Shown here in pieces: positions 14,319 through 18,923 of a stretch of 64,000 bases of DNA; position 1 is the first letter of the stretch, and each line of letters starts with the position of its first letter. The position numbers were made by a program, and so were the translations under genes. The stretch is from Acidovorax sp. 106 (GTDB lineage: Bacteria; Pseudomonadota; Gammaproteobacteria; Burkholderiales; Burkholderiaceae_C): NCBI RefSeq assembly GCF_003663825.1, contig NZ_RCCC01000001.1, positions 1,372,501 to 1,436,500 of the forward strand, written 5' to 3'. The notes beneath the pieces were generated by a model, which saw nothing but the letters and a program-made list of their open reading frames with translations, searched no databases and was not told where the DNA came from.

Positions 14319-15329
14319 TCAGGCGGCGAAGTTCTCCGTGTCTACTTCACTGGCACTTTGGGCGTTGTAGCGCCCGCCCACCACGGCCTGCGGTGTGTAC
14401 AACGCCTGCAGCCGCTCGATCACGCTGGGCGACAGTTGCACCTGCGCAGCGCCCAGGTCATCGTGCAAGTGCTCTACGCTGGTGGTGCCGGGAATGGGAA
14501 TGATGTGCTCGCCCTTGTGCAGCAGCCACGCAATGGCCAGCTGCGCCAGCGAGCAGCCCACCTCTGTGGCAATGGCGCGGTAGCCGTCCAGCAGCGTCAG
14601 GTTGGCGGCATAGTTGTCGGGCGCAAAGCGCGGCATGCTGCGGCGGATGTCCTTGACATCCAGCGTCGATACGTCCGTCAAACCGCCGCACAGATAACCT
14701 CGCGCCACCGGGCTGAAGGCCACGAAGGCCACGCCCAACTCACGGCAGGCGTCGAGCACGGCGATCTCAGGGTTGCGCGTCCAAAGCGAATACTCGGTCT
14801 GCAGTGCAGCGATGGGGTGCACCGCATGCGCGCGGCGCAGCGTGGCGGCCGACACTTCCGACAAACCAATGCTGCGGATCTTGCCCGCGCGCACCAAGTC
14901 GGCCAGCGCGCCCACACTGTCTTCAATGGGCACACTCTTGTCCCAGCGGTGCAGGTAGTACAGGTCAATCACATCGGTCTGCAGGCGGCGCAGACTGTCT
15001 TCGCAGGTCTGGCGCAGCGTGGCGGGGCACCCGTCGATCACGCGCACCAGCTTGCCGTCGCCATTCACGTCCACACCCTGCATGCCGCACTTGCTGGCCA
15101 GCGTAAAGCGGCTGCGGTGCGGCTTCATCACACGGCCCACCAGGGTTTCGTTGGCGCCAAAGCCATACAGCGTGGCGGTGTCGAACAGTGTCACGCCTGC
15201 GTCGAGCGCGGCCAACAGCACGCGCTCGCCCTGCTCGGCAGAAACGGGCGCGCCGTAGGCGTGCGAGAGGTTCATGCAGCCCAGGCCAATGGCCGAGACG
15301 GAGAAGGGTCCAAGGTTTCTTTGTTGCAT
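14319..15329 (-). CDS. Aldo/keto reductase
   Basis: This 336-residue NADPH-dependent oxidoreductase has the TIM-barrel fold of the AKR family. Catalytic residues appear in order: Asp and Tyr in FDTATLYGFG (near residue 50), Lys in LASKCGM (near 80), and His in YYLHRWD (near 125). The C-terminal coenzyme loop includes IPIPGTTSVEHL. The protein resembles the IolS/YajO-type subgroup; the true substrate is unknown. It stands alone, flanked by the REP element on one side and the cassette-like block on the other. Confidence 0.9.
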   Translation of the reverse strand: MQQRNLGPFSVSAIGLGCMNLSHAYGAPVSAEQGERVLLAALDAGVTLFDTATLYGFGANETLVGRVMKPHRSRFTLASKCGMQGVDVNGDGKLVRVIDGCPATLRQTCEDSLRRLQTDVIDLYYLHRWDKSVPIEDSVGALADLVRAGKIRSIGLSEVSAATLRRAHAVHPIAALQTEYSLWTRNPEIAVLDACRELGVAFVAFSPVARGYLCGGLTDVSTLDVKDIRRSMPRFAPDNYAANLTLLDGYRAIATEVGCSLAQLAIAWLLHKGEHIIPIPGTTSVEHLHDDLGAAQVQLSPSVIERLQALYTPQAVVGGRYNAQSASEVDTENFAA

Positions 15330-15539
15330 GGTGTGAGCTTACGGGAAGTGGGGCAGCCTGCTGGGTGGGTCGGGCTTGGGGGGGTGAAGGGCTGGTAGCC
15401 ATCAAGCGCTGTGCACCAACCGCCAAGCTATAGTTTGCTGCGGTAGCACTTGCCGGGTTTTACGGATTTTTAATGCCTGTTTTTTTGAGCAGTGCATCGA
15501 CCACAATTCCAAGCTGCAAGTCGCTCTCGGGAGGAACCC

Positions 15540-16097
15540 ATGTCCAGAATATCCCGCACGCCCCAGTTTATTCCGCAGGTTTTGCGGTCTAAATTACGTT
15601 GGGCCTGCATGCTGCGGTTCATTTTCCCACTCTGTGTGCTTGCTTTAAACATAGGAACATCAATGGCCAAGGATATTTTTGTCCACTCGCACAACCAAAC
15701 CTCCAATCGACAAGCCGTTTTCCAAGACGATGAGAGCGTTGCATACCTCTACTTAACGAGGCCTGGAACTCAAAAGCCAGAAAAAGATGCGATTGCGTAT
15801 TCCCGTGTTCCGTTAGTTGCTGAGGTCAACTGGTCAAAGGTCAACGAAACCAGAGAGACACCTCTCCTCTCACAAGACATCGCCAGCTCAACCGCATTAG
15901 TAGAAAACCCGCTTGAGGCCGATTTTTCGTTCAAATGGTCTACTGACGGGCATGCGGTCGCTCTGCTTCGAAACAGTATCCCTATCGCCTTTGCATCAGC
16001 GTCAGACAAGTTTGGTTATTCCAAAGCTGTCGCCAAATCTTCTCCACTCGCAAATGCTTGGGATCAAAAGCGCTATGAAGCACTTTTCACCAAATAG
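15540..16097 (+). CDS. Hypothetical exported protein in a cassette-like block
   Basis: I do not recognise this 185-residue protein. A basic N-terminus is followed by a hydrophobic segment (about residues 24-42, FIFPLCVLALNIGTSMA) that looks like a signal peptide or anchor; the rest is polar. A GGGAGGA ribosome site 6 bases before the ATG at 15540 decides the start over an in-frame GTG at 15492. The gene is clearly AT-richer than its neighbours, which suggests transfer. An attC-like palindrome begins 12 bases after the stop, so it may be an integron cassette gene. Confidence 0.7.
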   Translation: MSRISRTPQFIPQVLRSKLRWACMLRFIFPLCVLALNIGTSMAKDIFVHSHNQTSNRQAVFQDDESVAYLYLTRPGTQKPEKDAIAYSRVPLVAEVNWSKVNETRETPLLSQDIASSTALVENPLEADFSFKWSTDGHAVALLRNSIPIAFASASDKFGYSKAVAKSSPLANAWDQKRYEALFTK

Positions 16098-16109
16098 CCC
16101 CAACCCGGC

Positions 16110-16184
16110 GCTCAACCCCGCTCCTTTCAGTCGCTGGACGCTGCGCGATAAAGCCGCGCAGCACCGATTAGCTCTACGTTAGAA
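16110..16184 (+). other. attC-like recombination site 1
   Basis: GCTCAAC (fits RYYYAAC) at 16110-16116 and GTTAGAA at 16178-16184 bracket an imperfect palindrome whose core pairs GCTGCGCG with CGCGCAGC. The 75-base length and the TTAGCTC...ACGTTAG right side fit integron attC sites. The last base of the right core departs from GTTRRRY. Confidence 0.55.
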
Positions 16185-16195
16185 AGCTCATTTCG

Positions 16196-16633
16196 GTGAT
16201 CGATCCGCCGTGCATTACTGCTGTTCCTACCCCCTTCGCCTCAGACGAAACGATTGACGTTTCGTCGGTGGAATTTTCGTCTGATGGCCTAGCTATTTCG
16301 GTCTCGTCAGCTCACTGGGATGCGAAGGTAACGTTCACACAGACATACGGGTTTCGCGTGTTGGACGAACTGGACCTGACAGAGTTCTGGTCGCAATGCT
16401 CCCTGCGTGACGGCTGGTTCTTCGAAGTCACAGCCAATGGTTGGAAGGCCTTGGAGCTCTCCCGTCCAACCTTCTTTTCTGGTCGCCAAACTTGGGTGCG
16501 CGAGTATTTGGTTATCAGTCGCAACGAGTGCGTGTCTGTCCTAACCAAAGAAGATCCAACGGTTGTTGCCGCCGCGCCTTCTACCCTCTCGCTGCAGCGG
16601 ACGGCCACGCCGCCGGCTGAATTTCAACGTTAG
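16196..16633 (+). CDS. Hypothetical cassette ORF
   Basis: I do not recognise this 145-residue, probably cytoplasmic protein, which begins with a GTG at 16196 only 18 bases after the preceding attC-like core. It contains acidic and aromatic segments such as FSSDGLAISVSSAHWD and DGWFFEVTANGW and has no signal peptide. Its last ~17 residues (through TPPAEFQR) are encoded by the attC site, and its TAG stop is part of the GTTAGGC core, a hallmark of integron cassette ORFs. Base composition is lower in GC than flanking housekeeping genes. No function can be assigned. Confidence 0.65.
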   Translation: MIDPPCITAVPTPFASDETIDVSSVEFSSDGLAISVSSAHWDAKVTFTQTYGFRVLDELDLTEFWSQCSLRDGWFFEVTANGWKALELSRPTFFSGRQTWVREYLVISRNECVSVLTKEDPTVVAAAPSTLSLQRTATPPAEFQR

Positions 16634-16635
16634 GC
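16579..16635 (+). other. attC-like recombination site 2
   Basis: The right core GTTAGGC (16629-16635) is perfect. The left side reads TTCTACCCTCTCGC, a degenerate RYYYAAC-type end. Between them CAGCGGACGGC pairs with CCGCCGGCTG, as in environmental integron attC sites. The site supplies the stop codon of the upstream ORF. Confidence 0.7.
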
Positions 16636-16650
16636 GTCGCAAATACCACC

Positions 16651-17172
16651 ATGCCCAACACATCACCGTTTCCAGCCGAAGGCGGTTGCGACTGTCGCGC
16701 TGTCCGCTATCGCATCCAGTCTGCCCCACTGGTGGTGCATTGCTGCCACTGCCGCTGGTGTCAGCGGGAGTCGGGGGCTTCCTTTGCGCTCAATGCAATG
16801 ATTGAGGCTGATCGCGTCACCTCCATCGGTATTGAGCCGGAAGTGGTAGACACGCCGTCTGCCAGCGGCGCAGGACAGCGCATTGCCCGCTGCCCGCAAT
16901 GCAAGGTGGCCGTCTGGAGCAACTACGCCGGCTCCGGGCCTGTTGTCCGGTTTGTCCGTGTGGGCACGCTCGACAATCCCGATCAGCTCCCACCAGACGT
17001 CCATATCTTCACATCGTCCAAACAGCCATGGGTGCCGCTGCCGGCGGCGACACCCGCCTTCCCTGAGTACTACGATCGTGAGGAGGTCTGGGCCGCAAGC
17101 AGCCTCGAACGTCGCAAGGCGCTCCTACCCGCAATTGAGGCCTACCAAGCCTCGCGGCGCGGCGACGCCTGA
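16651..17172 (+). CDS. GFA family protein (CENP-V/GFA zinc domain)
   Basis: This 173-residue protein has the glutathione-dependent formaldehyde-activating (GFA) fold. Zinc-binding Cys occur in GGCDCRAVRYRI (near residue 12), HCCHCRWCQRESG (near 30) and ARCPQCKVAVWSNY (near 80). Members are often annotated as S-(hydroxymethyl)glutathione synthases, but most have unknown substrates. The ATG lies 22 bases past the GTT of the preceding attC-like site, so this may be the first gene of a third cassette, although no attC follows it. Confidence 0.85.
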   Translation: MPNTSPFPAEGGCDCRAVRYRIQSAPLVVHCCHCRWCQRESGASFALNAMIEADRVTSIGIEPEVVDTPSASGAGQRIARCPQCKVAVWSNYAGSGPVVRFVRVGTLDNPDQLPPDVHIFTSSKQPWVPLPAATPAFPEYYDREEVWAASSLERRKALLPAIEAYQASRRGDA

Positions 17173-17212
17173 CCAGCCTTCAAAAAGGCGAAGCCCCTTG
17201 TAGCCCACGCCC

Positions 17213-17521
17213 ATGCTCAAGCAACAGCTTCTTCAGGCGCTTGCCACCATCGACAGGCTGACGGCCGAACCCTCTCCTGTGTCGGGCGGAACCGCCCTTT
17301 TCTATCAGGGGCGGGAGTTTGCGCACTTTCACCATGACAACGAGCTGGATTTGCGACTGACCAAGAAGGTCATTCAAGCAGAGGGGTTGGCTCACCCCAC
17401 TGGCTCCGTCCACCACCCTACCCGCTCGCCTTCATCGCCCTGGATCGAAGTGCGCTTCAGAACAGCGAGTGAAGTGGAACGAACTGCTGAGCTGGTCAAG
17501 CTTGCTATCGCCCAGCTCTAG
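17213..17521 (+). CDS. Luciferase-domain (DUF5519-like) protein
   Basis: This 102-residue protein resembles the short DUF5519/'luciferase domain' family. It has the conserved segments GREFAHFHHDNELDLRLT and HPTRSPSSPWIEVRF. No catalytic role is established for stand-alone members. The gene follows the GFA gene by 40 bases in the same direction and may be co-transcribed. It has no signal peptide and ends in a short helix-like segment (ELVKLAIAQL). Confidence 0.7.
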   Translation: MLKQQLLQALATIDRLTAEPSPVSGGTALFYQGREFAHFHHDNELDLRLTKKVIQAEGLAHPTGSVHHPTRSPSSPWIEVRFRTASEVERTAELVKLAIAQL

Positions 17522-17609
17522 ACCGCCTCGCTACGCCCACACCCGTTCTACCCATTCACCTGCGGCGTTCGCGACAAGCCCCGCCCGCCATTGCATGGAC
17601 AATCTGGCC

Positions 17610-18923
17610 ATGTCTGGCACCACTTCTTCACCCACATCTTCCCCCCGCCCCGTGCTGATTGCCGGTGGCGGTATCGGTGGCATGGCCACTGCGCTCACCT
17701 TGCACCAGATCGGCGTGCCCTGCATTGTTTTTGAAACGGTGCCAGAGCTGCAGCCACTGGGCGTGGGCATCAACCTGCAGCCCAATGCGGTGCGCGAGCT
17801 GCACGACCTGGGCTTTGGCAACGAGGTGCTAGACAACATTGGCCTGCAGGCGCGTGAGTGGGCGCTGGTGGGGCGCAATGGCAATGAGGTGTATGCCGAG
17901 CCGCGTGGCCTGGATGCGGGCTACCGCTGGCCGCAGTACGGGGTGCACCGGGGGCAGTTGCAGATGATGCTGTTCAACGCCGTGAAAGAGCGGCTGGGCG
18001 AAGGCGCCGTGCACCTGGGGCAGCGCGTGGTGGGCTATCGGCAGGATGCCGATGGGGTCACCGCACTCATCGAGACGCGCGATGGCGAAAGGCGCGAAGT
18101 GGCGGGCTCTCTGCTGGTGGCGGCCGATGGCCTGCACTCGGCCGTGCGGGCGCAAATGCACCCCACGCAGCCGCCCATTCAGTGGGGCGGCGCCATCATG
18201 TGGCGCGGCACTACGCCGGGGGTGCCGGTGCGCACGGGAGCGTCGTTTGTGGGCCTGGGCTCGCTGCGGCACCGCGTAGTGTTCTACCCCATCACGCCGC
18301 CTGACCCGGCCACTGGCCTGGCCACCATCAACTGGATTGCCGAGATCACGGTAGACAACCAGGGCGGCTGGCAGCAAGGCGACTGGAACCGGCGCGTGGC
18401 TGTGGAAGATTTCATCCACCACTTTGAAGGCTGGAACTACAGCTGGATGGACGTGCCCGCCATGCTGCGCGGCGCCAAAGATGTGTTTGAGTACCCCATG
18501 ATTGACCGCGACCCGGTGCCCACCTGGGTAGACGGGCGCGTGGCGCTGCTGGGCGATGCGGCGCATGTGATGTACCCCGTGGGCTCCAACGGTGCGAGCC
18601 AGGCCATTGTGGACGCGCGTGTGCTGGGGGCGCAGCTGGTGGCGCACGGCGTGGGCCCGCAAGCGCTGCGCGCCTACGACGACAAGCTGTGCAAAGACAT
18701 CTCGGCCCTGGTGCTGCGCAACCGGGGCTCTGGCCCGTTTGGCCTGCTGGGGCTGGTGGACGAGCGCTGCGGCGGTGTGTTCGACCACATTGACGACGTG
18801 CTGCCGCGCGAGGAGCGCGAGGGCTTCATGGCCCGCTACAAGGCGGCGGCGGGCTTTGCGATCGAGACGCTGAATGCGGCGCCGCCCACCATTGCGCCGG
18901 GGCAGCGCGTGGCGGCAAGCTGA
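17610..18923 (+). CDS. FAD-dependent aromatic-ring monooxygenase (PhzS/salicylate hydroxylase type)
   Basis: This ~437-residue flavoprotein hydroxylase has VLIAGGGIGGMATALTL (FAD-binding Rossmann, near residue 20), the internal segment LLVAADGLHSAVR (near 170) and the flavin-binding GDAAHVMYPVGSNGASQAI motif (near 310). The arrangement matches class A flavin monooxygenases that hydroxylate aromatic acids or related rings. Start at 17610 or 17595 cannot be separated; neither has a clear ribosome site. It converges with the pmd operon across a perfect hairpin. It may supply a ring-cleavage substrate, but this is inference. Confidence 0.85.
   Translation: MSGTTSSPTSSPRPVLIAGGGIGGMATALTLHQIGVPCIVFETVPELQPLGVGINLQPNAVRELHDLGFGNEVLDNIGLQAREWALVGRNGNEVYAEPRGLDAGYRWPQYGVHRGQLQMMLFNAVKERLGEGAVHLGQRVVGYRQDADGVTALIETRDGERREVAGSLLVAADGLHSAVRAQMHPTQPPIQWGGAIMWRGTTPGVPVRTGASFVGLGSLRHRVVFYPITPPDPATGLATINWIAEITVDNQGGWQQGDWNRRVAVEDFIHHFEGWNYSWMDVPAMLRGAKDVFEYPMIDRDPVPTWVDGRVALLGDAAHVMYPVGSNGASQAIVDARVLGAQLVAHGVGPQALRAYDDKLCKDISALVLRNRGSGPFGLLGLVDERCGGVFDHIDDVLPREEREGFMARYKAAAGFAIETLNAAPPTIAPGQRVAAS

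Follow-up and report, generated by a model that had tools for sequence, protein, structure and literature searches.

How does a short run of partly AT-rich ORFs with attC-like palindromes come to lie between two ordinary chromosomal genes of Acidovorax sp. 106, in a genome that holds no recognisable integron integrase? The window analysed here is the whole stretch of 64,000 nucleotides, bases 1372501–1436500 of a genome that consists of one contig of 4.88 Mb (completeness 100). The initial annotation regarded the block from 15540 to 17521 as a solo or decayed cassette array of the CALIN type, and proposed a covariance-model search and a comparison of the same site in relatives. This raises two questions. 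First, which site received the cassettes? Second, which integrase could have inserted them? Both questions are addressed with the following features, given in window coordinates.

14319–15329, minus strand: left flank, aldo/keto reductase gene (PF00248)
15424–15600, plus strand: probable attI-type docking site, hereafter the leader (nhmmer profile, E 3.5e-48; homology of its copies stops at GTT; also beside intI in some relatives)
15530–15534, plus strand: Shine-Dalgarno-like GGAGG before the leader ORF, read from the sequence
15540–15599, plus strand: leader ORF, 20 codons (MSRISRTPQFIPQVLRSKLR)
15599–16178, plus strand: cassette 1 (5' core GTTGGGC, R'' CCCCAAC, 6/7 complementary)
15609–16097, plus strand: ORF1, 162 aa from the ATG at 15609
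16098–16184, plus strand: attC1, a degenerate candidate (10.5 bits with model R1; aligned with similar stretches of seven other loci)
16179–16629, plus strand: cassette 2 (5' core GTTAGAA, R'' TTCTACC, 6/7 complementary)
16196–16633, plus strand: ORF2, 145 aa
16579–16635, plus strand: attC2 (30 bits with R1, E 5.3e-6; found again in the whole-genome scan)
16630–~17173, plus strand: cassette 3 (attC lost except for a candidate R'' GCCTGAC at 17167–17173)
16651–17172, plus strand: ORF3, GFA family protein (PF04828, E 4.2e-27)
17213–17521, plus strand: ORF4, Luciferase-domain protein (PF17648, E 1.7e-14)
17589–18923, plus strand: right flank, gene of a FAD-binding-domain protein (PF01494)

The GC content is 0.50 in cassette 1 and 0.55 in cassette 2, against 0.651 for the window, so the first two ORFs are indeed AT-richer, as had been noted. 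Neither ORF1, whose N-terminus looks signal-peptide-like by eye, nor ORF2 matched any Pfam, NCBIfam or PADLOC family in the profile search (the Pfam/NCBIfam query of ORF1 started at the ATG at 15540), and the PADLOC profiles gave no match for any of the four ORFs. Against the plasmid collection, ORF2 has one partial match with 37.5% identity. Rfam at curated thresholds has no match in the window, and the single sub-threshold match in 15300–17700 is SNORD49 (E 0.29). ORF4 is not counted as a cassette because a related genome, G026, carries it behind another cassette; it is taken as native flank that probably lies outside the array.

The attC sites were searched with a covariance model, R1, built in this analysis from 29 of the 72 candidates that 20 regions with an integrase gene yielded within the family. 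A 3-mer shuffle of these regions gave 6 candidates against the 72 real ones, and the training sites had to have perfect cores, which biases R1 against degenerate sites. With filters off, attC2 is found over the 64 kb at the score given above, the second-best match in the window being 11.7 bits. It ends in GTTAGGC and supplies ORF2 with its ~17 last codons and stop; the distance from the G of a core to the next start codon is 18 nt for ORF2 and 22 nt for ORF3, all as initially annotated. The other palindrome fared differently: attC1 has an E of 1.3 in 64 kb (0.048 in a 2.4-kb stretch), which is chance level in this window, where chance matches score 11.7 and 10.5 bits, and it starts at 16098, with R'' CCCCAAC, rather than at 16110. 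Its putative identity as an attC rests on the related stretches of other loci and on core complementarity. As a control, R1 was applied to 63 loci that had been selected without regard to a leader (254 kb in all; 58 loci from genus-mates, 5 from the own genome). One of the 63 has a decayed leader, and none of them gave an attC at E<=1. Single-strand DNA folding of attC1 and attC2 was not better than that of shuffles on either strand (z -0.4 to -1.4).

A whole-genome scan with R1, in which 150 of 3903 candidates were scored, gave five sites with E<1e-3, from which attC1 is missing: attC2, 2880961 and 2881535 behind another leader, 1283384 behind a third, and 767950. The last is a lone attC of 34.7 bits (767950–768009, minus strand; locus L233) with no leader in 5.5 kb around, and a cassette insertion at a generic site is possible there.

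The answer to the first question came from the 5' end of the block. In a DNA search of the block against 47 genomes of the genus, it was found that, besides cassette matches, one piece (window 15424–15604) is repeated often. The element thus begins at 15424 and not at 15540. The iterated profile of this leader has 65 matches in the fetched loci, and their alignment describes a ~179-nt element with conserved GCTATAGT, TGCCGGGTTT and TTTTTATACC, an AGGAG-type motif and GTG/ATG-TCCAGAATATCC. Its conservation stops at ACGTT, followed mostly by RRRY-like letters and then unrelated sequence; in the window, the crossover is expected between G15598 and T15599 (ACG^TTGGGC), as judged from this junction.

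Among 58 leader copies, the start codon of the short ORF is ATG, GTG or TTG in 52 (GTG in 40), and an SD-like motif, loosely defined, lies upstream of it in 52 of the 58. In 34 of the 58 copies, the stop codon falls on positions 3–5 of the cassette core (GTTRRR). The window copy meets the core GTTGGGC, so its leader ORF passes through TGG, is left open and is joined in frame to ORF1. No selection on the leader peptide was detected among 42 distinct copies, whose non-synonymous/synonymous ratio is 1.4. A Pc promoter in the leader is only suggested, because a strict sigma-70 scan found no promoter in it.

The same leader is found next to integrase genes. It is divergent to an intI over the cut-off in four loci of the genus (L194, L195, L196 and L197), adjoins a partial or broken intI in four others (L201, L203, L204 and L205), and by coordinates lies beside intI in other genera too (for example in G049, ~24 nt apart, and in G295, G048 and G197). 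Among the 11 genus loci with IntI over the cut-off (L188–L198), the leader is clear in 4, weak in L189 (24.9 bits) and absent from 6. These six are L188, L190–L193 and L198, the last with only 7.6 bits. The genus therefore holds other attI types too, and with them a second kind of integron, whose attI differs.

The leader also stands upstream of attC sites. A same-strand attC lies within 2.5 kb downstream of 43 of 60 leaders, or of 36 of 53 without the seven leaders from loci picked for cassette or attC similarity (L064, L065, L068, L070, two in L071, and L072); for the remaining 17 of 60, no attC passed the limit used over this distance. An opposite-strand attC occurs downstream in one case, in which a second array faces that leader. 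The leader loci were obtained from BLAST matches of window DNA, with 56 regions hand-picked from the match list, and the count of 43 is based on 83 R1 matches with E <0.01 plus attC2, the 10 weakest of 93 matches having been dropped (two of these are opposite-strand echoes of strong sites). For the loci from named records, R1 was run on 38 of 53; a same-strand attC lies behind the leader in 24 of the 38, at least 5 of which (L142, L147, L164, L175 and L185) duplicate genus loci of the 60, and 43 of 44 attC sites are on the expected side.

In an integron array, the core at attI is that of cassette 1, and the attC of this cassette opens with R''; the two should be complementary if the cassette passed through a circular intermediate. 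This pairing was examined at the four variable core positions of 36 leaders and their first cassettes, with 108 of 144 matches for the real pairs against 76 for permuted pairs, and none of 10000 permutations was as good as the real pairing. Half of the first cassettes (18 of 36) are perfect in the four positions, and the other 18 are imperfect. Five matches that fell short of the whole model and the leaders without a GTT junction were dropped from this comparison, and the window's attC1 was added by hand. Within the window, the 5' core of each of the three cassettes is complementary to its own R'' at 6/7 positions, the third value being that of GTTAGGC against the candidate R'' GCCTGAC. At the end of ORF3, the 12-mer 17162–17173 pairs at 11/12 positions with the 5' end of cassette 3 and is the only such match on the plus strand of the window. 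The copy of cassette 2 in another genome, G011, has the R'' TTCTAAC, which is 7/7 complementary to GTTAGAA. Given its place beside intI in some relatives, the same-strand attC sites downstream and the pairing of core with R'', we read the leader as a probable attI-type site and as a member of a dispersed attI family.

The own genome contains six leader copies, of which the first five are 75–89% identical to each other. The sixth, at 3470864–3471013 on the minus strand (L234:2865–3040; 105.7 bits), is more diverged. A partial copy of 54.3 bits is found behind the array of another leader (L061:5058–5180, plus strand). Two leaders of the own genome, at 1816845 and 1832155, face each other 15 kb apart (L060:2345–2523 and 17655–17833), and this locus has no attC at E<=0.1.

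In the genus, a leader match, in some cases only partial, is present in 37 of the 47 genomes and an IntI over the cut-off in 12 (one with a stop codon); 9 genomes have both, and 28 have the leader without such an IntI. Across the family, the leader is matched in at least 50 of 299 genomes, which represent 34 of 141 genera; this is a lower bound, since 2 candidates per genome were scored. The core pattern also occurs among named records of Rhodoferax, Polaromonas, Simplicispira, Giesbergeria, Curvibacter and Brachymonas. In Rhodoferax sp. OV413, the leader is on four contigs, each time followed by an attC, with no intI match in the locus. At L061, the own genome and G026 have a leader, whereas 28 other genomes that share the gene upstream have none in the 1.5 kb that follow this gene; on the right, the flank varies too much for the boundaries of the unit to be placed.

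Most solo leaders are preceded by a palindromic piece of ~110 bp, which is absent from the window copy. A profile of this piece, built from 48 leaders, has 57 matches in the fetched loci, 49 of them directly upstream of a leader. Of the 8 elsewhere, seven are at or beside the leader's own palindrome, and one weak match (L097:420–475, E 0.003) is 0.8 kb away. When the leader and its upstream piece were compared by blastn (E 1e-5) with the plasmid and phage collections, nothing matched. A 72-kb contig of a viral collection (L271, IMGVR_UViG_2767802758_000001) contains one exact match to the leader pattern. Back-to-back divergent pairs of leaders are seen in other genomes (L102:2800–2984, L071 and L111); those of L102 have a common central palindrome, 84 nt self-complementary at 83%. 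Such pairs could go back to a dock with two heads as the ancestral unit.

Neither outcome that would have refuted the initial annotation was obtained: R1 has a clear match at one of the two palindromes, and the block is not kept in synteny, as seven relatives with the same flanking genes show. In G026, with flanks of ~90% identity, the leader (87%) is followed by one unrelated cassette. G045 is without leader and array and retains only the 3' end of ORF4; as the 5' part of ORF4 is gone too, this state perhaps arose by deletion. A decayed leader (L236:4724–4820, 73% identity) amid other sequence occupies the same intergenic region in G031, and other sequence lies between the flanks in G034, G028, G010 and G033. 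Cassette 2 recurs in G011 with 86% identity, directly behind another leader and between different flanks.

The turnover seen at this site is found at other docks. Ten leader pairs had at least 250 nt of similar upstream flank, five of which were counted as orthologous solo pairs; not counted were three that share intI itself as flank, one within a single contig (L099) and L095/L099, with an unclear 259-nt match. Four of the five counted pairs (window/L062, L116/L128, L101/L107 and L123/L133) show no similarity over the 600 nt that follow the leader, and L119/L121 has the same cassette. If L125/L126 is added, which shares 245 nt upstream, has the same cassette and comes from the same two sister genomes as L119/L121, the figure is 4 of 6. 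Since the cassettes differ in 4 of 5 orthologous solo pairs, the docks were used. Among all 1770 leader pairs, four share at least 150 nt downstream. The leaders of L071 and L072, in two genomes, have the same first cassette (94% over 600 nt) without similar upstream flanks.

As for the second question, the absence of an integrase, as first annotated, extends to the whole genome: the one-contig sequence has no IntI over the TIGR02249 cut-off. The best match is partial, with 79.6 bits against the cut-off of 265, and falls in one of five tyrosine-recombinase genes, taken for Xer-like. Of the components of a complete integron, the locus has no intI gene and, as judged by homology and the GTT junction, a putative attI site. 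The account that we favour, at a probability of roughly 80%, is that the locus is an integrase-less integron platform, composed of an attI and three captured cassettes, which an IntI would have filled in trans. Our confidence is tempered by the 6 of 11 genus IntI loci without the leader and by the overlap of the trans step with the reading of a local loss of intI. We infer that the cassettes were inserted through attI x attC recombination at the ACG^TT junction, by an IntI encoded elsewhere or present in an ancestor. The SD and the 20-codon ORF of the leader would load ribosomes, which in most copies would stop on the cassette's own GTTRRR core and could restart on the cassette gene; our best guess is that the leader may aid translation of the first cassette. 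As no integrase is left, the window array should now be frozen. Cassette 3 has lost its attC.

An alternative interpretation, which we consider unlikely, is that a complete integron at this very place lost its intI, leaving a plain CALIN; its leader would then be what remains of an on-site intI-attI platform that had received its cassettes in cis. The loci with a partial or broken intI beside the leader (L201, L203, L204 and L205) demonstrate that such decay occurs, and the missing upstream palindrome sets the window copy apart from other solo copies in a way that supports it. However, no intI match was found in the 1.5 kb upstream of the window leader (tblastn, E 0.01), and an upstream intI match accompanies only 5 of 60 leaders (in the available sequence, up to 1.5 kb and ~1 kb for many). 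Most other solo leaders have the palindromic piece in place of intI, as a dispersed form without intI predicts.

It is very improbable that the cassettes entered at an attG, a generic site in the genome, without the participation of an attI. Although cassettes can come to lie outside integrons by attG insertion, as has been described (excerpts of PMC12444791; Loot et al. 2024, as cited in the excerpted PMC11023631), an attG is neither attI nor attC, and the insertion site here is no short degenerate site; it belongs to a ~179-nt conserved family homologous to the intI-adjacent attI. That ordinary genes with chance palindromes feign an integron can practically be dismissed, for the weak attC1 and the unremarkable folding stand against the attC2 score, the leader family, the circle complementarity, the recurrence of cassette 2 and the empty 254-kb control.

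With regard to known systems, the platform resembles a CALIN, as outlined in the excerpted text on IntegronFinder 2.0 (PMC9024848), in that it has attC-bearing cassettes and no integron integrase nearby, and the initial classification as a solo or decayed CALIN stands to this extent. It was incomplete, since the array begins with a conserved, recognisable attI-type site, unlike a CALIN. A CALIN calls for no fewer than two covariance-model attC sites; here, only one is strong, with 30 bits for attC2 and 10.5 bits for attC1 under R1, the model made here. The same text states that integrons typically have one attI close to the integrase and that IntegronFinder does not detect attI outside class 1; such docks would therefore probably be filed as CALINs.

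The leader also resembles attI1 and its ORF-11, which, according to the available portion of PMC8876359, combine an SD with a short ORF across the crossover that takes its stop from positions 3–5 of the incoming GTTRRRY; there, what counts is the initiation region, and the amino acid sequence of the peptide is of little importance. Unlike attI1, the leader has an ORF of 20 codons with mostly GTG starts (40 of 58), and its dispersed copies are mostly without intI. In some Comamonadaceae, chromosomal integrons with intI have this leader as attI; the window type differs in its short arrays, which occupy separate docks that no intI adjoins. The delta-attI cassettes (PMC12901181, in excerpt) and the attG insertions likewise involve recombination sites outside the usual intI-attI context. 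They differ from the leader: a delta-attI is a piece of attI at the end of a mobile-integron cassette, and an attG is a generic genomic site. No description of dispersed or multiple chromosomal attI sites was found among the matches listed in the open-licence literature, as covered by titles and the beginnings of abstracts.

The locus is ordinary in its parts, namely cassettes, attC and a missing integrase, and unusual as a whole, with many stand-alone attI docks, cassette turnover and genomes mostly without an IntI over the cut-off. Tentatively, and with somewhat less than even confidence, we propose that Acidovorax and other Comamonadaceae have a distributed integron, in which stand-alone attI docks with their own translation start signals form a chromosomal repeat family, and a single IntI, or one present only for a time, would supply them with cassettes in trans. 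If this is true, cassettes would be expressed at several chromosomal addresses at once, and the ~110-bp palindromic upstream piece would be part of whatever spreads the copies. The leader family yields a profile of an attI that is not of class 1, and adds another example of a short ORF in attI whose stop comes from the cassette core. If docks without intI are indeed dispersed and exchange their cassettes, some of the arrays now classed as CALINs would be organised platforms equipped with translation signals; a platform could then be uncoupled from its integrase, and a single integrase could refill several loci.
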